Part shown: in pieces, positions 1-47,481 of the stretch
How the letters are laid out: the number at the start of each line of letters is the position of its first letter
How positions within the stretch are numbered: the stretch's first letter is position 1
Source: Rhodothermaceae bacterium
GTDB lineage: Bacteria; Bacteroidota; Rhodothermia; Rhodothermales; Bin80
NCBI GenBank assembly: GCA_009838195.1
Contig: VXSC01000036.1
Coordinates: 1-64,000 of the forward strand
DNA: 64,000 nucleotides
Direction of reading: 5' to 3'
Made by a program: the position numbers and the translations under genes
The notes under the pieces: generated by a model
The model's database searches: none
Seen by the model: only the letters and a program-made list of their open reading frames with translations
What the model was told of the DNA's origin: nothing

Positions 1-2791
1 CAGAACCGGTGATGGTATAGTCCGAATCTTCGTCTGCCGTGCCGCCCAGCGTATAACTCAACGTGAAATCACTCGCGGGCGAAGGATGTATGAGAACCTC
101 GATCTCGTACGTACCCGTATCTTCCAGCGCGCTCGATGCCGCCGAAGCAAAGCGGGCATACGGAGTATATTCATTGTCCACGATCGTCAACTCATGTTCG
201 GTCGGATTTCTCATGTTGTATCCCACACCTAATTCCAGTTGCAGAAGCAACGTCTCGTCCGGCTCAATCTCGGCGTCGTCAATAATCTTGACGGGGATGT
301 TCACTGAGGTCGCAAGCGCAGGCACTGAAACCGTCCGGGAATTGTTAATGGTATAGTCCGAACCTCCGGTCGCCGTGCCGTCTAAAACGCTGTAGTTCAA
401 TGTGAAACCGGACACCGGGGCAGGATCAATGGTTACTTTTGTGTCGTATGTACCCGCGTTTTCATTCACACTGCCCTTCGCCGAAACAAAACGGATTCTC
501 GGGTGGTCATCGTCCATGATTGTCAGCTTATGTATGCTTGGTTTTAGCAACCCGTTGCCCGTGCCAGCGGTGAATGTCAAAATCACCGTCTCGTCCAACT
601 CACCCAATTGGTCGTCAATAATCTTGACCGGGATATTCGCTAAGGTCGCAAGCGCAGAGACCTTAACCGACCCGGAACTTGTGATTGTATAGTCCGAATC
701 TGCAGTCGCCGTGCCGCCTAGAGTGTAGCTAAACGTAAAATCGGACACGGGTGCAGGAGCGATGACTACGCTCATATCGTGCGTGCCAACATCTTCCGTC
801 ACATTGCTACTATATAAGGAAAAACCGATCCTTGGCACATCATTATCTACGATCGTTAACTCATGTTTTCTCGGGCTCCCCAGCTTGTGCCCCGCACTAG
901 GGATCAGCGTGAGGATGACCATCTCTTCATGCTCGTCATAATGGTCATCCTTAATCACAACGGGGATCTTCGCCGAAGATGCATGCGCAGGGACCTGAAT
1001 CTCCCACGAAGAAGGAATGATGTAGTCTTGGCCCGACGACGCCGTGCCGCTAACCTCAAAGCACAATTTGAAACTGGACACGGGGACAGGATCGATGGTT
1101 ACATCTATGTTGTGTGTGCCAACATCCTCTTTTACCCTGCCCTTTTCGAAAACAAAACGGGCCAATGGCTCATCGTTGTCCACGATCGTTATCTCATGTT
1201 CGCTCGGGCTCTCCAGCCTATATTTTGTGCCACCACTGACAAGTGTCAGGATGACCGTCTCATCATGCTCATGCTCCCCGTCATCAACAATCTTAATCGG
1301 GATGCTCACCGAGCCCACATTCGCGGGCACCGAGACCGTCACGGAATTAACGGTTTTGTAATCTTTACCATTGGTCGCCGTACCGCCCAGCGTGTAACTA
1401 AATGTAAAATCAGCCACGGGTTTAGGATCAATGTCCACGCTCACATAGTGCGTACCAACATCTTCATAGACGCTACTTTTGGCCGAAACAAAGTGAAGGG
1501 CCGGCAAATCATCGTCGATGATCGTAATCTTGACCTTTTCGGGATCACCCACATGGTGGTACACCGGACCTTGCAAGTTCCCTTCATCAATCCCCACCGT
1601 AAACTCTCTGTACCCGCCGCCAGCATTATCCTTATGGGTCTGAATCTGCCCGCTACCCTTCGTATTATATGCTTTGATCGTTATCGAAGCTAATGAAGTA
1701 TAGTCGCCAGGATCAACGGCCGTGTCCTGAGGATTGGGGTAGTGCAACGGTACCGTCTGATCAATAGGGATTCCGTACGACATTGCAGCCGTGATCGTCA
1801 CCGATTGGCCTTCTACCACTGGATTCGGAGAGGCCGATAGCGTGATCGACGGGGCAGGATCTAACACCAAAATAGGACACAAACAGTCAGAATGTGCGTG
1901 TGCCACATCTGGAACTCCTAATACATACCCTGAAACATGACTGTTGTACCCCCCGATAATATTGAACTTGAATGGGTCGGACATCTCTTTCCCCGCCGGG
2001 ATCGTGACTGTGATCAGATCCTGATTTATATCGCTTAATTTTCGAACCTTCTCAGAGAACTTAAGCTCAACCTTGATATCCTGTGCCTGTACCGGAGTGA
2101 CCACTGCCCTGACGATAACCGAATCTCCGATACCGATATATCCAGACGAAAGTCTCAAACACACCTCTGGCGTCGCATCGCTACCCTGGATCGCCACTGG
2201 AGTAAGACCTCCGAGATCTACTCCCGGGGGCAATTCATCCATCACCACTACAAAGTTCCTGTAGTGTGTATCCACAGGGACTTGGAATTCAGTTGTCTTG
2301 GTTTTTGAATCCTCAAGGGGGATCGTAAATGGTTTTGAATCTCCTCCCGAAACCATCGAGAAATTCTGGGCATTGCCCAGTAACTGTTCAAAATCGCTCC
2401 ACCGGTTACCTATTGAATCTACGGCTGACACGTAGACGCTCGTGCCTGATCCCTCGTGAGGAAAAAATGGAAAAACAAAGGCGGGGCTGCGTTGGGAAAA
2501 TTCGCCTTCGCTCACGCGAATCGCTTCGAAAGGAGCGGTACGCGGTTCAGCAGAAAATAGCGTAGTCGCGACAACGTCCTGCTCGCGTTCTTCAACAGCA
2601 TGCACATGGGGATCCAGCAACTCCCAAGGAGATACGCCAGAATGGACTTCAACGTTCGGTGTACGCACCTGACCGAGCACCAAAGCAGGGAAAAACAATA
2701 CCCCAAGGCCAACGGAGTTCAGGGCATGTCGAATGCGGACCCTGAAACGATTCCGTTCACCGAAGAGAAAGCTAACTACTTTCGCGTCATA
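1..2791 (-). CDS. Calx-beta repeat secreted/surface protein (3' end outside window)
   Basis: The minus-strand frame is open from just after a TAG at 2794-2792 to the left edge, about 930 codons, and is incomplete at its C-terminus. A hydrophobic signal-peptide-like stretch (GVLFFPALVLGQ, about 2704-2671) is followed by about 350 residues of non-repetitive sequence. Then come five Calx-beta-type units about 330-340 bp apart, each with a Y-T-L-G-G-T-A-like strand, an SDYTI-like strand and an acidic DDDEP/DNDEP turn before the next unit. Calx-beta domains bind calcium and are common in bacterial adhesins, so a secreted or cell-surface adhesion role is inferred. The start is a problem: the first in-frame ATG is at 2356, deep in the mature protein, and the first TTG (2698) and GTG (2680) lie inside the signal peptide. 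An ATT at 2734 preceded by AGGG would give an intact signal peptide; alternatively a one-base indel separates the frame from the ATG at 2790. Confidence 0.8.
40..1740 (-). repeat. Tandem Calx-beta domain-coding repeats (five units, about 0.33 kb each)
   Basis: Within the partial surface protein, near-equivalent segments recur around 55, 395, 725, 1055 and 1395. They read Y-T-L-G-G-T-A-(T/D) followed by D-Y and later an E-x-D-E-T-(V/L/I) strand. The units have diverged at the nucleotide level but keep the domain pattern. More units may lie beyond the left edge. Confidence 0.75.
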
Positions 2792-25373: not shown

Positions 25374-25843
25374 GAGAATTCCTCCCCGTAGCAGATCTAT
25401 GAATTACATTCGCCAAGAAGATACGTATTACGATACCAAAGTGTACGTCTAGAAATCCCTGTTGGCCGGACCACCTGAACCTGGATCTATCACGCCCGAA
25501 TGCGCTCTACCAATGCTGGACTGATTGAACGAACACCCGGACCAGATCATGGAACGGCTCTATGGAAACACAAAAATGCGATTTAGTGAATATTGTGCAT
25601 TCAGAATGCATAATATCCACTCATGCAGTACGGATACATTATAGATTCCTACACCTACCTTTCCCGACTCGCTCACCACGACACCGCTTGAATGTCGCAG
25701 CTGTGGGTGGTTTACAACCCCCGCCTGTACGGCGATTGTGGAGTACCTACCTCCATCCCTCATACAGTTACAGTATAGTGTTGGCTAAGTCATCACTTAT
25801 CTCCATTCTTGTTTACGTGGCACACGGAAATTCAGGCTAGTCG
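25374..25843. other. Gene-poor stretch upstream of the GH3 gene
   Basis: About 470 bp without a supportable gene lie between the GH3 start and the macrodomain pseudogene. It contains a near-perfect 27-bp palindrome (25590-25616) and presumably the GH3 promoter. No tRNA or terminator structure was convincing. Confidence 0.5.
25590..25616. promoter_or_regulatory. Near-perfect palindrome, possible operator
   Basis: The half-site ATATTGTGCATTC and its mirror GAATGCATAATAT flank a single central A, with only one mismatch across 13 pairs. It lies in the non-coding region about 217 bp upstream of the GH3 start. A dimeric repressor site is plausible, but no adjacent regulator gene is present. Confidence 0.35.
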
Positions 25844-26347: not shown

Positions 26348-29300
26348 TCAAGCCGCAGCCGCATACACTCCTCTACCACCGCCGTAGTAAGAATCATAGA
26401 CGTGCTGGTACACGGCCTCGACCTTTTGCTGAAACAGCCTCGGCGAGACACTCTCCGGCAATCCCTCTTCCAGCACATCCTCGATGTGGATTTTCACTGC
26501 AGCCCGGGACTGTTGGAACTTGCGCCAGTCCAGAACTAGCTGTTCACGTTTCAACGCCTGCAACAGGCCCCTAGCCGCTTTCTTCACCTGCTTGGTTTCT
26601 TTGTTGGAAAGATCAATCCGAGGCTTGGTCAGGATATCGAACACCACCAGCTCTTCTTCCGATAGTTGCTCCGCGACACTTCGCTTCTCCTCATCGTTAA
26701 GGCTTTTAGCGAAAGCCAGCAGTTGCTGGAAATACTCGTCGATATTCACGCTTCCGGCATTGTATTCATCGATCATCTTCTGGAAGCGTTCCTGATAATC
26801 AATACGGGTGCGGTTGAGGCGCAACATCTGCTTCAGTTTGCTGTTCACTTGGCCCCTGAGTATTTCCATCTCCGTGCGCTTCTTGCCTTTGGCGAATCGC
26901 TCCTTCAATGCCTCGAAATCCATCTGCGCGAGATCGACCCAATGCTCCTCAACATCATTCGCGGCCCCGAAGACCGGCGGCGTTGTTCGTACAACATATC
27001 CTTCGGCATCAATGGACTCATTCAGCAGTTCCTCTACTTGGCCCACTACCTCGGAGATGTCTGTCGGTGGGGTAAGTGCCCGGATCTTCTTCGCCAGCAC
27101 GTCGAATAGCTGGTACCGTGCGGCGGAAGACTTGGCTTCGCTGTCGGGCAGTATGGCCTTGTAGAGCCTCCCGACCATTGCAGCTTGCGTCAAGTACCGT
27201 TTTTTGCTGTCGTCATTGGCAATCAGGGCCTCCCTTGCATCATCGAGCAGCTTGATCTTCTCGAAATCGCTGGTTGCCTCAATGGCATCCAGATTAACGC
27301 CCATTCTGGAACAGAACTCCTCCATCTCGACAATTGACTGCCGTAACAAGGCAACAAGTGCCGCCTTGTCCTTGACCGGAGAATCTTCACCAGCACTACT
27401 CCCAGTCCCATAAATCTCCAGTGCCTTTTCCAGATTGCGGAACACCCCGACATAATCGACGATAAGACCGTTGACCTTTTCCTTGAACACCCGGTTGGCC
27501 CTTGCGATCGTCTGCATTAAAGTGTGATTGCGCATTGGTTTGTCAAGGTAGAGCGTGGAGCAGGAAGGCGCATCAAAGCCGGTCAGCCACATGGCGCAAA
27601 CGAAAACAATCCTAAAGGGATCGTCTGGATCCTTGAACTTGGTTTCCAGGTCTTCGCTGACCATGCGCTTGCGGTGCGGCGCGATGTCCAGTCCCTTGGC
27701 TTTCATCTCCTCAATCTCGTTCTGTGACGAGGAGACCACCACTGCCATATCGCTGGATTCCATGAATTGAATCCGCTCCCTGATGGCTTGACGCTTCTCG
27801 TCATCTACCTCCTCGGCCATCTTGTCCATCAGACGCAACATCTCCGCTTTCCAGTGCACTTGCACCTTGTCGTACATGCGCACTGCCGTGGCCTTGTCGA
27901 TGCTGATCACCATCGCCTTGCCTGGGAACCCACGCCCGGTGAAGTGGCTCACCAAGTCTTCGGCAATGGTCTCCAACCGCTCCTCCCGCGTGATCAGGTG
28001 ATACTGACGAGTGAACTCCCGCTCCAGCTTCTTCTCCTGGGCCGCGTCCAGTTCCGCATCTTCCAGCAGGCGCTCCATGTCCTCGTTAAGATTCTCGTTG
28101 ATGAGCTGCAATTCGGGGATGCGGTTTTCGTAATACAGCGGGACGGTCGCGCCGTCCTCCATTGATTGGCGGAAGTTGTACACGCTCACATAGTCGCCGA
28201 AGACCTCCCGCGTCTTTTCTTCACCGATGATCAGCGGCGTACCGGTGAAAGCGATGAATGAGGCATTGGGCAAGGCAGTACGCATATTCAGTGCCAGAGT
28301 GTCGTATTGGCTGCGATGCGCCTCGTCGGTAATTACGATGATGTCGGAACGCTCCGATAACACTGGATGCTTCTCGCCCCGTTCAGTGCGAAACTTGTGG
28401 ATCAGTGTGAAAACGTAGCGGTGATTTTCCATCAAAAGCTGTCGCAGATGGCGGCCTGAAGTGGCTTGTGCCTCCTCCTCGGTCACCGCCCCGCTCGCCG
28501 CGAAGTTCTTGTAGATCTGGTGATCCAGCTCCTGTCTGTCAGTGATAATGACGAAGGTCCAGTTACCGGGGATCTTGCGAAGTACCTTCTGTGCGAAACA
28601 GATCATTGACACGCTCTTGCCGCTTCCTTGGGTGTGCCAGAACACACCCAGCCTGCCAGCACGGCTCTCAATGCGCCGCAGCGCGTCGATTACGTTATTC
28701 ACCCCTAGGTACTGGTGATTCTTGCCCAGTAGTTTGATCCATCCGCCTTGTGCCTTCATGAACAGGGTGAAGTTCTCAACCAGGTCGAGTAGCCGTGCCT
28801 TATCGCAGGTGCCTCGGATCATGGTCTCCAGCGAAACCACCCCCTCCTCGCCCTCGTTATTGATCTTCTTCCACTCGGTGAAGTGCTCCCAGCTTGCTGT
28901 TATGCTGCCGATACGACTGCGGCTGCCGTTTGAGAGTACGATCAGGGCGTTGTACCAAAAGAGCTGCGGAATCGTGCACTTGTAGTCACTAAGATTTTCG
29001 GTGTAGGCCTTTTCCAGCCGGGCATGGGTCGCCTTTAGTTCGATGAACACCAGTGGAATGCCGTTGATGAAGCCCACCAAGTCGGCCCGCCGGGTGTACA
29101 TCTCCCCGGTTACCCAAAACTGACTGACCAGCAGAAAATCGTTGTTAGCTGGTGCCTTCCAGTCGATCAGCCTGACTGACTCCACCGTCTCGCCCTCACC
29201 ATCAGGAGTGCGGATCTTCACCCGCACGCCGTTCTTCAGCAGCAGATAGACTTCGCGGTTGGCTTGCGCCGGGGCCATAGCGCCGCGGTCGCGAATCAAT

Positions 29301-29527
29301 TCCTCCATGGCTTGGTCGAAAGCGTCCGCTGGTAGATCGGGGTTCAGGCGCTCCAGTACAGATCGCAACCGCCCCTCAAGCACCACCTCGGATTGCGCTT
29401 CCCGCCCCAAGGGGTTGCCGTCCGTTTGGTTGAACTCATGGTATCCGTAGACCGTCTCCCATCCCATCTCCGCGAACAGTGCGATGGCAGGTTGTTCGAC
29501 CAGCGTATCTTCGGAGTAGTCGGACAT
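26348..29527 (-). CDS. hsdR: Type I restriction endonuclease subunit R
   Basis: The 1059-residue motor/nuclease subunit has an N-terminal PD-(D/E)xK site (Asp149, then FIELK with Glu163 and Lys165). SF2 helicase motifs follow: Walker A GSGKS at residues 301-305 and DEAH at 401-404, with TGTPLI and the later QTIARANR motif VI. The C-terminal helical region would dock on the methylase core. It cleaves DNA after translocation when the target is unmethylated. It lies 234 bp downstream of the DUF4411 gene, so it may have its own promoter or be read through. Confidence 0.95.
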   Translation of the reverse strand: MSDYSEDTLVEQPAIALFAEMGWETVYGYHEFNQTDGNPLGREAQSEVVLEGRLRSVLERLNPDLPADAFDQAMEELIRDRGAMAPAQANREVYLLLKNGVRVKIRTPDGEGETVESVRLIDWKAPANNDFLLVSQFWVTGEMYTRRADLVGFINGIPLVFIELKATHARLEKAYTENLSDYKCTIPQLFWYNALIVLSNGSRSRIGSITASWEHFTEWKKINNEGEEGVVSLETMIRGTCDKARLLDLVENFTLFMKAQGGWIKLLGKNHQYLGVNNVIDALRRIESRAGRLGVFWHTQGSGKSVSMICFAQKVLRKIPGNWTFVIITDRQELDHQIYKNFAASGAVTEEEAQATSGRHLRQLLMENHRYVFTLIHKFRTERGEKHPVLSERSDIIVITDEAHRSQYDTLALNMRTALPNASFIAFTGTPLIIGEEKTREVFGDYVSVYNFRQSMEDGATVPLYYENRIPELQLINENLNEDMERLLEDAELDAAQEKKLEREFTRQYHLITREERLETIAEDLVSHFTGRGFPGKAMVISIDKATAVRMYDKVQVHWKAEMLRLMDKMAEEVDDEKRQAIRERIQFMESSDMAVVVSSSQNEIEEMKAKGLDIAPHRKRMVSEDLETKFKDPDDPFRIVFVCAMWLTGFDAPSCSTLYLDKPMRNHTLMQTIARANRVFKEKVNGLIVDYVGVFRNLEKALEIYGTGSSAGEDSPVKDKAALVALLRQSIVEMEEFCSRMGVNLDAIEATSDFEKIKLLDDAREALIANDDSKKRYLTQAAMVGRLYKAILPDSEAKSSAARYQLFDVLAKKIRALTPPTDISEVVGQVEELLNESIDAEGYVVRTTPPVFGAANDVEEHWVDLAQMDFEALKERFAKGKKRTEMEILRGQVNSKLKQMLRLNRTRIDYQERFQKMIDEYNAGSVNIDEYFQQLLAFAKSLNDEEKRSVAEQLSEEELVVFDILTKPRIDLSNKETKQVKKAARGLLQALKREQLVLDWRKFQQSRAAVKIHIEDVLEEGLPESVSPRLFQQKVEAVYQHVYDSYYGGGRGVYAAAA

Positions 29528-29761
29528 CAGTTTTCCTTCTATCCCCGTTTCATCTTCACGACGACAAACGCCAAACTGTAAGGCATTATCTCTTTGTTTT
29601 TGTTCACATTTCTAACCATAAACCCCTGACTCAAGCCTCACTGCCATTAGAAATATTTGACCTTTCATGCCCTATTTCCGATACTGCGCACATCTCATCC
29701 ATCTATTGAAGAAGGAGTTGGGCCGAGGTTCTGCGTTGGCCTTTTGCTTTCAGGTGGCCAT

Positions 29762-30256
29762 TCATATCTCAGTCTTCAAGACAAAACACGCCTTTTCACG
29801 GCGCAGCATTTCGAATGGCGTCATCACCTTTATGCCCAGCCCGACGCAAACATTGGGAATTTTTACCTTATTGGGTGTATCCGCGGGTTTCTCGTGGGTG
29901 ACCACTACGAAACCGTGCGTTAATGCATGGGATACCAGCCAATAGTCCGCCACCTGCAAGAAGTTGTTCACTGCCGTGGGGGTATAGCCGTTCTCAATCA
30001 CCCACTTACTGACCTGAGTCATATCCCTCAGGTCTTCTGGGTCTGGTTTGAGAAACAGACGTTTACCTGGTCCTTCAGCCCAATCGGTCAAAGCATCGTC
30101 ACCTGCTGAGATTTCATCTCCTACTTTCTCAATACTGAACACCTTCTGCTGCGCATTACTCATAATCAGCCACCCCCAAAATGCGGGACAGAAATCTAGT
30201 CCATAGTGAAGATTGTTTGCCGCCATAAAGACATTGGCATCCAGCAAATATTTCAT
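29762..30256 (-). CDS. DUF4411 family PIN-like protein (possible toxin)
   Basis: The 164-residue protein begins MKYLLDANVF, with the first PIN acidic residue at Asp6. It has ADYWLVSHALTHGFVVVTHE in the second half, where PIN-like folds carry the later acidic residues. This matches the DUF4411 family, which often sits next to an ImmA/IrrE-type gene, and a ribonuclease toxin role is the usual prediction. Its ATG overlaps the stop of the peptidase gene by ATGA (30256-30253). The pair is embedded in a type I restriction locus. Function is inferred only from family and context. Confidence 0.75.
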   Translation of the reverse strand: MKYLLDANVFMAANNLHYGLDFCPAFWGWLIMSNAQQKVFSIEKVGDEISAGDDALTDWAEGPGKRLFLKPDPEDLRDMTQVSKWVIENGYTPTAVNNFLQVADYWLVSHALTHGFVVVTHEKPADTPNKVKIPNVCVGLGIKVMTPFEMLRREKACFVLKTEI

Positions 30257-39369: not shown

Positions 39370-41715
39370 TCAATGAATGACTGCAACCTTGCCATATGCC
39401 ACACCTTCACCATTCTTTCCCATGGCAACAATCAAGTACATTCCAGAAGGGACTAGTCTGCCATCCTGATCGCGACCATCCCAAATCCCCCGTCCACCAC
39501 GTGCCTGCATGCGTCGGACCAGTTCTCCGTGCACTGCCATGACAGATATTTCCGTTTCGGCAACCAGACCTTCAATATAAATTTGAGGTTCTGCGTCTGA
39601 AATAATCTCGACTGGGTTTGGGTAAATAAACAAATCCCTTGTACGTTCCGAAGGCTGAATCGCATCACTGAGTAGACTGATGAGCCCCTTATCGGTCCCC
39701 AAAAAGACACGACCACTGGATCCTTCGACAGCGATTGTGACCACCATATCAGAAAACAAGGGAGAATTATCAGACCTATAGTGCGCAACCTGCGTGAATC
39801 CGTCGCTCTCCGAAAGCAAATAGATACCACCGGGGGTCGCCATCCACAGCCGGTTTGACGGATCAACCGCGATGTCATTGACACTCAATCCATTCAATAC
39901 ATAGGATCCAAATGTGCGATCCGCCCAAACAGGCCATACTGCTTGCAAAGTGGGATCATTTGCGGCAAAAGAGCCACTTCGAAAATATGCAGGACCGCCA
40001 CTGGTACCAACCCAGACCCGTCCGGCTAAATCTTCCGCGAGTGCGTGAATCTGAGTACCCGGTAGCCCCGTACCATTGGACCCGGGAGTTGCATAATAGG
40101 CACATGCATCATCCGTTGCATCTTCGGGCGTATCGTTGGTATCCAGAACGAGTAGCCCCCGGGTAATGTTCAGGTTCCCCCGGTCCAACAAAATAATCCA
40201 CTTAATTCCGTTCGAATCGATAAAGATATCCCCCAATGCGTTGGTTTGGGGTGCTCCCTCACATCTGGGCGGTAGCAGTCGGGCCCATGTCCCATCCGGT
40301 GCACGTACATGTAATGGGTAGGGCGAAGTTGTATTTGTCACCCAAAGCGTTCCATCCTCTTCGCTAGCCATCCCCCCAACGATGATATAATCCTGCGTTC
40401 CCGCTGCCGGAAGTAGAGTCGAGTTGATTCGGTCATAAGTCGTAACCACATCTTCTGGGGAGACCTGTGCCAGGCCAGCACCGCGAGAAGCGGCCCATGC
40501 TACTCCTAGGCCGTCAACATGTACGCGCCAATAACTCCCCCTGTCACGCAATCCTTCGAAAAATCGCCCCGTGAAATTCGTCCACTCCTGGTTTGAATCC
40601 ATACGATAAAACCCGGATCTGGGGATACCCAATTGAGCGGCAGCCCAGAGGCTCCCATCTGGACCGATCACCAAATCCCCAAAAGGAGAATCAAATGGTC
40701 CCTCGGGATAAAGACCATTACTGACAAGGTCCAAGGAGAGGGTTCCGCTTGCTTTTGTGTAATGATTCAGCCCACTATCAGCATCTCCAAGCCACACATC
40801 CCCAGTCGTGTTCGTTGATACTGCACGTAAATCCTCGTACCCGCTTACGAGAGTGGTCTCTGTCCCTCGCGCATCGTAGGCACGCAGTCGAAATCGCGTT
40901 ACAGCTAGAACTTGGTCATCAAGAATCCCAAAATCCAGGATCGCGCGTGCACTGGACCCAACCCGTTCATAGCTTCCATCCTGCATTCGCTTTCCCAGGC
41001 CAAGAGGCGTACCCACATACAGGCGTCCGTGGTGGTACACAATATTCGTGACCTGCGGGACTGGAATGATTGCGTCTTCGGATGTCCAACTGCTTGGATC
41101 CTGGAGGCTTCTTCCTGAAAGTGGCGCATAGGCAATGCCTACGTCTGTACCAACCCATACTCCAGTCTCTCCGCTAGGGACAGTGTCCACTTCAATATCA
41201 TTGACAGCGGTCGCTGCTGGGAGCGAGCCAAATCTGCTATACGTGTCACGGACCTCATCACGGAGCGGATCAAAGACCACCACCCCAAATCCCGTTGCAA
41301 TCAGAAGGCTGTCTCCCCATACTTCCATTGCATTGATGATCTTGGAAGGAAAGCGTTCACTGCGGTAAATATCAAAATAAGTGGTGACCTCTCCGGATGA
41401 TATATCCAGGCGATCAAATACACCATCTGCGTATCCGATCCAGACAAGTTGCCGCGCAGAATCCCATACGATCGCCTGCGCATTCACATCATAAAGGCCT
41501 TCAGCTGCGGTATACCGCTCTATCTCACCACTACTTAGATCATAGCCGAAAATCCCTCCCGTAGAAGCTACCCAAACCATCTCCTGCCCTGCCGATAGAC
41601 CCGTCACCTCGCGTGCGCTAGTATGCGCTGTCCATGATCGTGCAGATTGGGCATAAACCGGGAGGGCAAATAGAAACACAAAAAGCCCCACCCAAATGCA
41701 CTCGAGCGATTTCAT
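39370..41715 (-). CDS. porZ: PorZ-like two-beta-propeller protein with T9SS C-terminal sorting domain
   Basis: The 781-residue protein has a signal peptide ending at VYAQ. Repeated propeller blades follow with [37 protein letters not shown] and [11 protein letters not shown]. The C-terminus has FIYPNPV and then [18 protein letters not shown] and VAYGKVAVI, a T9SS type A sorting domain. Porphyromonas PorZ has the same size (about 780), two propellers and a sorting domain, and helps attach anionic lipopolysaccharide to T9SS cargo. Length and layout favour PorZ over a generic propeller cargo. The gene is coupled to ribH by ATGA (41715-41712). Confidence 0.7.
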
Positions 41716-43167: not shown

Positions 43168-46100
43168 TCAATACTGCAGCGTTCCCCGCAGATTCAGTCC
43201 TACATTTCCCTTTGCGTGGGCGTGCACTAGTCCATAGATGGCCACGGTAAACCGGTCTCGGGGCTGTAGCTCTCCCCCCAGCCGCATCAATGCAGTCCCG
43301 GATTGCCAGGTGGCCCCCAGGACGGATCGGGCCGTGCCCTGTTGCATCGGAATCCCATACCCCACTTCCATCTCCGTCCGGTGAAGATTCCGTTGTGGAA
43401 CGGCATCCAGCACCGTCTGCTGGTGATGCAGGGTCAGCCCCTGATTCGCCCCCCAGGAGGGACGGACCCGGAGCATCAGCCCTTCCGCCTCGCGCCCAAC
43501 CTGCACCGATCCCGAGATCCCCCACTGCGTAAACCCGTCTTCCGCATGCAGGACCAACCCTTGAGAACGCACCTCTCCCTTCAGGTGCCACGCCGGAACC
43601 GACACCCGGACCCCGCCTCCCAGCTCCATCCCCAGTCCGGTCTCCGCACTCCCGCCATCCCGACGCACATTCGCCTCCACATACGGACGAATCCGATCCC
43701 CCAGATCCAGGGCCAGTTCCATCCCCAATCGTGTCTGGTATACCTCTGCTGTCACATCCAGATCCGACATCGTGGCATCCGCATACCAGACATCTCCATG
43801 GTAGCTCAGTCGCAGCGCCTGCACCGACACCAGACTCCCCCGCACCCCCAGTGCCCCAAACCCCGAGGTCAGCCGGCCCGACAGGTCCACTCCCTCCGCC
43901 CGGCCTCGACCATAGCCGCCACTCACCCAGATGCCGCCTCTTTGGTGCTGATAGGATACATACGGATACACTCCGGTCAGTCCGGATTCCAGCACTCCCG
44001 TGTCCTGATGCACGACAAACGATCCATTTCCTTGGCTGTGCGCCACAACCAGCCCCGCCATCCATCTCCCACTCCACCGGTAATCCATTCCAAACAATCC
44101 CGTCGCCACCGACCCGCGCAGACGGAGCGCTCCCGCGTCCCGGCCCCGGAACCGCCGATAGGCCCCGCGGCCCCATACCCCAAATCCCCCCGTGCTCCTC
44201 GATACATGACACCCCCCAAGCAACTCGCCCAGCGACGGCCGCCAGTTGGACACCGTCTGCCAAAGACGCATCAGATCTGCACGATCCCCCGCCGCACACA
44301 CCGATGCATCCACTCTGGACTGCACCCGCTCCTGCAGCGCCTCGACCACATGTACTGACGAGGTGCGCACAAACCGAGCCGTATACGCGGCCAGCACATT
44401 CCGGGTGACCGAACCCGCCTCGCGAATCGTGGCCACCGCCACTGCATTCGCGATCTGCGCATGTGTTGACTGCTCCAGATGCACCGAAAACGTTTCCCCG
44501 CGCCAATCCAGATCATCCCGCAGCAGCGGCACCGCAATCGTGGCGGCGACCGCCCCCGGGAGAAATTCCAACATCCCCGCCACGGCGCGATAGTCCTCGC
44601 CCGCCTTCGCCGTCCCATCTCTGGTTCGGTAGGATACCGAGACCGGTTCAGAACTCGGCGCAGATAAATGAACCGTAAACCGGATCACCTCCGCCGATTC
44701 CACTCCGTCTTCAACGCGAAGCGTCACCCCGCCATCATCATCCACGATTGTCAGCATCCCCACCGCCCGTTGGATGATCGCATTGCGCGGCTTCGAAAGC
44801 GTTACCGTTAACTGCTCCTCCCCCTCTGCAACTGCATCATCGACAATCCCCACCGAAATCACTCCTTTGGTCGCATTCCGACCAAACACCACGAATCCCT
44901 GTGACGACACATAGTCCGAAGGTGCTTCTGCCGTCCCATCCGACGTCGCATACTGCACCATCACCACCTTGTCCGAAGGACGATTTAGTTCCACGCGCAG
45001 TTGTGCTGCCTTCGCATCCTCTCGGCGCGTGAGGTCATGGATGGACACCGACAGCGGCGCAAGGCCATTGTCGGTGATCGTTACCGCCACCGCGTGCCGC
45101 ACGCCTGTATAGCCGCCCCCTGAAGCCGTGAGCGTCAGCCCCACCACATCATCCGTGAGATCCTCATCTTCCGCCGCCGTCAGGACGATTCTCTGTTCGG
45201 CATTCCAGTTTGTGGACGTAAAGGTCAGCGCCACCGGATTCATCGTCAGGTCGGTGCCCGCATGTCCAGTGACCGTCACCGTTACAGTTCCCGTTGGCTG
45301 CGATGAAAGCGCCACCGGCAGGTCCTTTGTACCGCCTTCGGGCACGATGGCGGATGCTGGTGCCGTGATCGCGGCGACATCGTTGTCGGTGATCGTCACC
45401 GCGACCAAATGCGTTACCCCCACATAGCCGCCGCCCGAGGCCGTGAGCGTCAGCGCCACTTGGTCATTTGTAAAACCCTCATCTTCCGCCGCCGTCAGGA
45501 TGACGTTCTGTGCGACATTCCAGTTCGTGGGCGTAAAGATCAGCGCCACCGGATTCAACGTCAGGTCCGTGGTCGCATGTCCGGTGACTGTGACGGTTAC
45601 CGGTGCTGTTGGCTGCGACGAAAGTACGACCGGCAGGCCTTCTGAACTCCCTTCGGACACTACCACCGACGCCGGCGCCCTTAACGAAGCCAGATCATCG
45701 TCCGTGATCGTGAGCACGACAGCTGCGGGATCGGTGACTCCCCGCGTATTGCGGGCGAATCCCCCAATGGTGATCGTCTGGTCTGGCGAGACTACATCGT
45801 TGTCCACCGCGGTAATCGTCACCCGATCCGTACTCGTTTGTTCCCCCGCCGCAATCGTGAGCGTGCGATCCCCGTCCAGACGATACACCAACGGCGACGG
45901 TGACGGCGAAAAGGAAAGTGATACGGTCGTCTCTTCCTCCGAAATTGCGTCCAATTCGGCCGTGACCTCCGCAACCCCACCGGCCTCCTCAATAGAGGTG
46001 CGATCCAGGACCAGATGTACCATCGGATTGTCATCATCCTCAATCGTAAGTAGGACATCTGCAGGGTTGTCGGCATCACCTGAACGGGTACCCGAGACTG

Positions 46101-47481
46101 TGATCCATTTTTCCGGCGGACCATAAATGTCATTATCCACCGCGGTGATCGTCACGGTACCCGTACTGCTGGTCTGTCCCGCCGGAATCGTCAGGATTTT
46201 GTTCTCACTCAGTCGATAGTCCGATGCCGATGCCGATGCCGGGAGTTGGACAGATGCCGAAATGGTTACCGTCGTCGCTGCGCTGGAGGTATGATTCATC
46301 GTTGCCGTAACCCTCGTGAATCCTCCGTTTTCACTGATGCGCGGGGCAGATAATTCCAGCGTGACGGTCGACGCAGCGCCACATACCTTGAAAGTGTTTC
46401 TGGAAGGCAGAAACGTGAGATAGGGATGGTCAAGGATGGTTGAAGGAAGACATTCAATCGGATTGTTCTGCAACCACACATGAAGTAGCGGAACACCATT
46501 CTTATGACCAAAGAAATTTTCCGGCAAAGTTCTCAGTCTGTTATTATCCAAACAAATGTGTTCCAGACTGGAGAGTCCATCGAGGAGACCTTCCGGCACA
46601 CTGGTCAGGGCGTTGTAATGTAGATATAGTATTCGTAAACTGGAGAGTCCATCGAGGAGACCTTCCGGCACACTGGTCAGGGCGTTTTGATGTAGATATA
46701 GTATTCGTAAACTGGAGAGTCTATCAAAAAGCCCCGCTCCCAGACTGTCCAGGGCGTTGCCAGATAGACCTAAATACTCCAGGTTGGAGAGTCCATTGAA
46801 GAGATCTTCAGGCAGACTGGTCAGGGCGTTATCATTCAGACGTATATGTCTCAAGCTGTCGAGTCCATCAAAAAGCTCTTCTGGCACACTGGTCAGGGCG
46901 TTGTTATACAGCGATAAAGATCTCAAGCTGGAGAGACCATCAAAGAGATCTTTCGGCACACTGGTCAGGGGGTTACGGTGCAAGTCTAACCGTCTCAAGT
47001 TGGAGAGATCATCAAAGAGATCTTCAGGTAGACGGGTCAGATCGTTATCAAATAAGTACAGAGATTTCAGGCTGTCGAGTCCGTCAAAAAGCCCGTCGGG
47101 CAAACTGGTCAGGTCATTTTCAGATAAGTTCAAACCTACCAGACTGGAGAGTCCATCAAAGAGCTCATCCGGCACACTGTTCAGAGCGTTACCAAATAAG
47201 GATAAAACTTCTAGGCTGTCGAGCCCCTCGAAGTCTCCCACACTCAGAGATGTAATTCCCCCTCTACCCGCATTAATGTCCTTGATTCCCGCTAAACTCT
47301 CGGTAGGTACGCTCTTACAATCCGACTCGCTTAGATTTAGTTGTTTAAGAATTATTGCTTCAATTTGGCTGGTGCGATCACAAATATCTTTAAACTCCTG
47401 GGCCTGAGAATTCAATGAGAAGAGGAGCAGTGGGATGCTCAGAGAAACCCGTGCAATGAGTTGAAAAACGATCTTGCTCAT
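43168..47481 (-). CDS. LRR / Calx-beta / beta-barrel surface protein (autotransporter-like)
   Basis: From the ATG at 47481 the 1437-residue protein has a signal peptide ending near SQAQ and a Cys-containing cap. Eleven leucine-rich repeats of 24 residues follow (about residues 60-330; LTSVPEGLLDGLSSLRILYL type), with a Cys-capped end. Two Calx-beta-type domains come next, then two near-identical Ig-like units with TVTVTGHA and FTPTNWN/FTSTNWN, then two more Calx-beta domains. The last 370 residues are beta-rich, with FGVWGRGAYRRFRG, YPYVSYQH and a final NLRGTLQY ending in an aromatic residue, like an autotransporter barrel. A surface-displayed binding protein is inferred. The barrel-coding part is clearly GC-richer than the LRR part. 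An earlier ATG lies at 47502. Confidence 0.78.
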   Translation of the reverse strand: MSKIVFQLIARVSLSIPLLLFSLNSQAQEFKDICDRTSQIEAIILKQLNLSESDCKSVPTESLAGIKDINAGRGGITSLSVGDFEGLDSLEVLSLFGNALNSVPDELFDGLSSLVGLNLSENDLTSLPDGLFDGLDSLKSLYLFDNDLTRLPEDLFDDLSNLRRLDLHRNPLTSVPKDLFDGLSSLRSLSLYNNALTSVPEELFDGLDSLRHIRLNDNALTSLPEDLFNGLSNLEYLGLSGNALDSLGAGLFDRLSSLRILYLHQNALTSVPEGLLDGLSSLRILYLHYNALTSVPEGLLDGLSSLEHICLDNNRLRTLPENFFGHKNGVPLLHVWLQNNPIECLPSTILDHPYLTFLPSRNTFKVCGAASTVTLELSAPRISENGGFTRVTATMNHTSSAATTVTISASVQLPASASASDYRLSENKILTIPAGQTSSTGTVTITAVDNDIYGPPEKWITVSGTRSGDADNPADVLLTIEDDDNPMVHLVLDRTSIEEAGGVAEVTAELDAISEEETTVSLSFSPSPSPLVYRLDGDRTLTIAAGEQTSTDRVTITAVDNDVVSPDQTITIGGFARNTRGVTDPAAVVLTITDDDLASLRAPASVVVSEGSSEGLPVVLSSQPTAPVTVTVTGHATTDLTLNPVALIFTPTNWNVAQNVILTAAEDEGFTNDQVALTLTASGGGYVGVTHLVAVTITDNDVAAITAPASAIVPEGGTKDLPVALSSQPTGTVTVTVTGHAGTDLTMNPVALTFTSTNWNAEQRIVLTAAEDEDLTDDVVGLTLTASGGGYTGVRHAVAVTITDNGLAPLSVSIHDLTRREDAKAAQLRVELNRPSDKVVMVQYATSDGTAEAPSDYVSSQGFVVFGRNATKGVISVGIVDDAVAEGEEQLTVTLSKPRNAIIQRAVGMLTIVDDDGGVTLRVEDGVESAEVIRFTVHLSAPSSEPVSVSYRTRDGTAKAGEDYRAVAGMLEFLPGAVAATIAVPLLRDDLDWRGETFSVHLEQSTHAQIANAVAVATIREAGSVTRNVLAAYTARFVRTSSVHVVEALQERVQSRVDASVCAAGDRADLMRLWQTVSNWRPSLGELLGGCHVSRSTGGFGVWGRGAYRRFRGRDAGALRLRGSVATGLFGMDYRWSGRWMAGLVVAHSQGNGSFVVHQDTGVLESGLTGVYPYVSYQHQRGGIWVSGGYGRGRAEGVDLSGRLTSGFGALGVRGSLVSVQALRLSYHGDVWYADATMSDLDVTAEVYQTRLGMELALDLGDRIRPYVEANVRRDGGSAETGLGMELGGGVRVSVPAWHLKGEVRSQGLVLHAEDGFTQWGISGSVQVGREAEGLMLRVRPSWGANQGLTLHHQQTVLDAVPQRNLHRTEMEVGYGIPMQQGTARSVLGATWQSGTALMRLGGELQPRDRFTVAIYGLVHAHAKGNVGLNLRGTLQY
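46567..46710 (-). repeat. Two almost identical 72-bp LRR-coding units
   Basis: Positions 46567-46638 and 46639-46710 are the same 72 bp with two mismatches, both within one codon (CAA versus TAC on the coding strand). Each encodes one 24-residue leucine-rich repeat. The other LRR units of the gene are much more diverged, so this pair is a recent duplication. Confidence 0.9.

Follow-up and report, generated by a model that had tools for sequence, protein, structure and literature searches.

A single gene of the Rhodothermaceae bacterium encodes what we take, with a probability of about three in four, to be an adhesin or receptor that exports itself in the manner of type V systems and stays anchored at the cell surface. 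The gene occupies positions 43168..47481 on the minus strand of the window (the 64,000-nucleotide stretch of contig VXSC01000036.1 that was analyzed) and is an uninterrupted frame of 1437 aa, with its ATG at 47481 and its stop at 43168-43170, in agreement with the single 1437-residue frame described in a sequence-only reading of this DNA. It combines a signal peptide, a leucine-rich repeat (LRR) head, a Calx-beta stalk, a helix, and an outer-membrane β-barrel. One Pfam scan of the whole protein returned LRR_8 (E 2e-50), Calx-beta (E 4.5e-39), and Autotransporter (PF03797, E 1.8e-7), and because relatives of the barrel by itself occur in every one of the 16 family genomes, this domain architecture is not a product of chance. 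The sequence-only reading had proposed a self-displaying surface receptor or adhesin; display is supported by a predicted membrane barrel akin to type Va translocators (PF03797 and VIA-align), while the role as receptor or adhesin is one that we infer.

The LRR head and the Calx-beta stalk

Residues 1-28 (MSKIVFQLIARVSLSIPLLLFSLNSQAQ; 47398..47481, minus strand) form a predicted Sec signal peptide, judged by eye from a basic n-region, a hydrophobic core, and a cleavage-like end (SQA-Q). The LRR head that follows (aa 29-370; 46372..47397, minus strand) is defined by the LRR_8 match, its motifs, repeats in the DNA, and matches to PDB sequences. It consists of a Cys-bearing N-cap (DICDRT...DC), 11 repeats of 24 aa, and a Cys-bearing C-cap (NNPIECLP...VC); since these Cys-bearing segments flank the repeats, the head is probably disulfide-capped. 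The 11 LxxLxLxxNxL motifs, which match the number of repeats counted earlier and together with the LRR_8 score place the protein among leucine-rich repeat proteins, start at aa 90-332 with a spacing of ~24 residues, and their counterpart in the DNA is a tandem array of 72-nt repeats spanning 46490-47235. LRR ectodomains in the PDB were matched by sequence with E values down to 8e-59 (IGFALS), and the Leptospira LRR protein LIC11098 (4u08) at E 4e-46. The window protein thus resembles LIC11098 and animal LRR ectodomains in having an LRR fold by sequence, but these proteins carry neither a barrel nor a Calx-beta stalk, and likeness at the level of repeats shows no shared ligand. A type III effector was ruled out, as the NCBIfam matches to SlrP, XopAC, and XopL cover the LRRs only and fall far below their cut-offs.

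The stalk (aa 371-1021; 44419..46371, minus strand) is identified by the Pfam Calx-beta match (PF03160, 133.6 bits against a cut-off of 27 in the whole-protein scan) and by DNA repeats. Six Calx-beta/Ig-like sandwiches can be discerned, their number and boundaries set by eye from recurring acidic ends (most terminate in DDD or DND motifs), which bears out the earlier count of at least six such domains. In this feature the protein is similar to the Calx-beta/Big_9 biofilm adhesins BapP and LapA, whose stalks are likely calcium-stiffened (PMC12153261); LapA leaves the cell by type I secretion and BapP presumably does as well, whereas the window protein carries a barrel in the same chain. An RTX/Bap adhesin of type I secretion was also rejected, as the Pfam scan of the window protein contains no RTX family and the chain terminates in a barrel. 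A second Calx-beta ORF lies at window positions 2-2791 (minus strand; 930 aa, E 1e-39); the contig start cuts its 3′ end, and it may have had a barrel.

The C-terminal barrel and its relation to type Va translocators

The outer-membrane β-barrel (aa 1100-1437; 43171..44184, minus strand) is identified by PF03797, structural models, and fold matches. The PF03797 match scores 31.6 bits in the whole-protein scan against a cut-off of 26 and is limited to positions 1-121 of the 255-position profile; the barrel segment scanned separately scores 33.6 bits, and 46 of 63 barrels scanned match at E <= 0.01. The chain ends in Tyr, a BAM signal-like end, and Tyr, Trp, or Phe is the last residue in 83 of 125 barrel ORFs that reach a stop (some of these loci overlap). 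Upstream of the barrel is a helix (aa 1029-1054; 44320..44397, minus strand) with the conserved sequence ARFVRTSSxQIVEALQERF, recognized in the AlphaFold model, the VIA-align comparison, and the alignment. A linker follows between conserved Cys residues at aa 1062 and 1091 (44209..44298, minus strand), which the alignment defines and which is modeled as short helices with a pLDDT of ~64-87. Both Cys residues are kept in 36 of the 63 barrels, and the linker is possibly a disulfide-closed mini-plug. What had been read as a 370-residue C-terminus with an aromatic end is therefore refined to a ~338-residue barrel after a 70-residue helix and linker, the aromatic end being retained.

AlphaFold models were built from a 38-row alignment (pLDDT 78.8, pTM 0.76) and from a 63-row alignment that includes Gammaproteobacteria (pLDDT 87.7, pTM 0.84), and both consist of the helix and 18 strands. 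Structure prediction had been suggested as a check for a barrel of 12 or 14 strands; a membrane barrel is indeed predicted, with 18 strands instead, and neither the soluble β-helix nor the non-membrane sandwich named as a refutation is what the models depict. Alternation of a hydrophobic face exceeds the 95% null in 2 of 19 segments, which leaves the strand number unsettled by this measure. In VIA-align, the top rows for both models are the type Va translocators EspP (Z of 19.0 and 17.4 for the 38-row and 63-row models, respectively), NalP (17.6 and 17.4), AIDA-I (17.7 and 17.1), and Hbp (16.1-18.1 across the two models). The aligned part comprises the helix plus roughly the 12-13 strands that come first, with ranges that begin at model residue 1, and the pre-barrel helix is aligned with the pore helices of EspP, NalP, and AIDA-I. 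Foldseek alone ranks large transport barrels (TonB-receptor) first for both models. The barrel profile had no match among PDB sequences at E 0.01, a one-sequence query had none in the genome contigs, and matches in PHROGs were to families of unknown function only. Because profile (PF03797) and fold (VIA-align) agree, kinship of the barrel to type Va translocators is supported at the level of sequence and model.

The protein thus shares with type Va systems such as EspP, AIDA-I, NalP, and Hbp a single polypeptide with an N-terminal passenger, a predicted pore helix, and a translocator barrel at its C-terminus, as well as the PF03797 match, the best VIA-align matches, and an aromatic last residue. 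It differs in its passenger, which is made of LRRs and sandwiches where type Va passengers are usually β-helices, and in the two conserved linker Cys residues. Its barrel (~335-338 aa) is also ~65 residues longer than in ordinary autotransporters (~272 aa, counted from the beginning of the PF03797 match to the stop, for six proteins of another family of the same phylum). Solved type Va barrels have 12 strands, and given the 18 predicted here, the export mechanism may differ from that of type Va. Assignment to the inverse autotransporters (type Ve) was rejected, because their barrel is N-terminal to the passenger and that of the window protein is C-terminal.

Distribution of the barrels and of the LRR-barrel combination

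Profile searches located 10 barrel places in the 3.0-Mb window genome (G000), one of them a contig-edge fragment, and up to 22 places per genome, fragments included, across the 16 family genomes. At the nine other places in the window genome (the fragment among them), the stalks consist of Calx-beta, cadherin, or Big_9 domains wherever passenger sequence is present in the locus. At the order level, 20 of 114 genomes match, all within the same family or one other genus, and of 394 genomes sampled from the phylum, 13 match the barrel subfamily, three of them weakly. The generic PF03797 exceeds its cut-off in 63 of these 394 genomes, mostly in one other family, so the notion of type V as something foreign to this phylum was rejected and only the subfamily of the window barrel is narrow. 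Chlamydiae reach up to 21 type Va proteins per genome (PMC4793230), and a high number of barrels is thus not new in itself.

A search with a tighter barrel alignment yielded 42 loci. Relatives with a name comprise MAGs labelled Rhodothermales, Rhodothermaceae, or Bacteroidetes, together with a single Gammaproteobacteria MAG and a contig labelled Acidimicrobiaceae; from their isolate names, most appear to be sponge MAGs. The last of these, a 3.5-kb contig with a Rhodothermales-type barrel (L156), is probably misbinned. The class to which the matching gammaproteobacterium belongs has matches in 14 of 274 genomes, six of them weak, and in a quick tree the Rhodothermales and gammaproteobacterial barrels interleave, which is compatible with an undated transfer between the two groups. 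Several contigs of genomes G003 and G005 contain barrel-only fragments of ~70-310 aa, some internal and some at contig ends.

Among the loci examined, LRRs and a barrel occur in one ORF only in the window gene and in a second gene of the same genome (L026, C36:192412-198165). As most profile-search loci contain only part of the passenger (named loci were taken with up to 10 kb of flank), a by-eye comparison of LRR and barrel places was added, and it revealed no other shared ORF in the 16 family genomes among the matches listed. Identity is 30% between the two barrels, which lie far apart on the tree in separate clades, and 49% between the LRR heads; this suggests two separate LRR-barrel joinings without proving them, since the repeat consensus inflates LRR identity. 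A step in GC3 within the window gene, from 0.47 in the LRRs to 0.70 in the barrel, hints at separate histories for these segments, though the other barrel paralogs of the genome span 0.47 to 0.71.

Two sequences of congener G002 stand at contig starts: its best LRR match (contig C56) and the sister of the window barrel (contig C39; 65% identity, SH-aLRT 100). The C56 gene terminates in an 87-nt sequence (C56:1-87) with 12 full-length places in G002. Among all loci examined, the initial 206 nt of C39 have matches only in the repeats of C56 (82-91%) and in copies of C39 itself. C56 and C39 are probably two halves of one LRR-barrel gene, separated by the end of a mobile element and by a break between contigs. 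The 87-nt sequence itself is mobile-element-like, several of its copies stand at contig ends, and at C56 it cuts the LRR-Calx-beta gene. Of the architecture that the sequence-only reading suggested seeking in sponge-symbiont and marine genomes, the barrel is widespread in relatives, but LRRs and barrel in one ORF were found only in the window genome and, probably, one congener. A broken LRR/Calx-beta remnant (L030) lies at ~C36:115645-116420 of the window genome, with pieces that match aa 9-80, 403-464, and 799-917 at 63, 47, and 69%, respectively.

Adjoining the window gene is a gene for a PorZ-like component of the type IX secretion system (T9SS; 39370..41715, minus strand; PF21544 PorZ_N, E 4e-19), and SprA is also present in the genome, which indicates that the organism has a T9SS. 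The window protein was rejected as a T9SS substrate, for it bears no sorting tail: no C-terminal sorting domain (Por_Secre_tail or similar) matched in Pfam up to E 1. In this family, LRR proteins that lack a barrel have related heads with similar 24-aa repeats, but where these proteins end in a T9SS tail the window protein has Calx-beta domains and a barrel. All eight that were scanned match Por_Secre_tail at the C-terminus, three above the cut-off and five weakly. With SprA and the PorZ-like gene present, LRR heads in this lineage therefore appear to use two outlets, their own barrel or the T9SS. Other features of the window include a match to Group II intron D1-D4-2 (25636-25754, minus strand; 81.4 bits) and, by eye, at 26348-30256 (minus strand), a 1059-aa ORF resembling type I restriction subunit R and an adjoining 164-aa PIN-like ORF.

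Proposed export and display, and their significance

We propose that Sec would carry the protein to the periplasm, where signal peptidase would remove the leader, and that BAM would recognize the aromatic C-terminus and insert the barrel. The rest of the chain would then reach the outside by way of its own barrel or next to it. The helix preceding the first strand would remain in the pore, as the models suggest. Outside, the six sandwiches may bind seawater calcium to form a stiff stalk that, from the order of the domains, would present the LRR head at its tip, and the head could bind a protein or glycan of the host's matrix or cell surface, or a neighboring microbe. LRR heads, sandwich stalks, and anchors appear to be interchangeable modules in this lineage: the barrel-less heads examined would leave by the T9SS, and two or three appear joined to autotransporter-like barrels.

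The target allows another reading. The protein may be displayed as described and bind other bacteria or biofilm matrix in place of sponge, as an adhesin like BapP, the Calx-beta/Big_9 protein that a marine bacterium needs for calcium-influenced biofilm formation (PMC12153261). Close relatives also have numerous barrel proteins without an observed LRR head, which fits such a target, whereas the enrichment of LRR and cadherin repeats in sponge MAGs over seawater MAGs (PMC8163846) speaks for the host without being decisive, and we regard the biofilm target as possible, though less likely than not. Export followed by cleavage to a soluble secreted protein is unlikely: some type Va proteins, such as EspP, do release their passengers, but the Pfam scan revealed no protease domain in the window protein, no release site was identified in it, and its long stalk suits an adhesin that stays attached.

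It is similarly improbable, and slightly more so, that the barrel is a porin-like anchor with the LRR/Calx-beta part left in the periplasm. The 18 predicted strands are a porin-like number and the large transport barrels lead the Foldseek ranking, but VIA-align places type Va translocators first with the helix on their pore helix, PF03797 exceeds its cut-off, and Calx-beta stalks of variable length are typical of surface adhesins. Nor does the gene look like part of a repeat family that is recombining and decaying, with scant function left to the gene itself. The broken remnant on C36 and the numerous barrel fragments in congeners are what such decay would leave behind, but an ORF intact across 1437 codons, with all domains present and the conserved residues of the barrel family retained, makes this very unlikely.

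For a self-exported, surface-anchored protein of this composition, our literature search found, among the papers covered, none that combines LRR, Calx-beta, and autotransporter; two that share Calx-beta and autotransporter describe other systems, as judged by key terms. A broader proposal is tentative, and we hold it doubtful as a whole: that the enlarged 18-strand autotransporter barrels, which in one clade have a Cys-closed linker, constitute a new type V subtype common to Rhodothermales and Gammaproteobacteria, wide enough to let through or display folded LRR and Ig-like modules and exchanging heads with the T9SS. If the 18-strand prediction is true, the range of possible autotransporter barrels would be broader.

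A survey of ~1200 sponge MAGs found that eukaryote-like repeats, LRRs included, are enriched in symbionts; few lineages had secretion-system genes, and the route of the repeats to the host was left open (PMC8163846). An LRR head fused to its own outer-membrane barrel, alongside T9SS-tailed LRR heads in the same genome, would provide a concrete, predicted route for such host-like repeats. The window protein thus suggests how relatives of sponge symbionts may place host-like repeat proteins on their surface.
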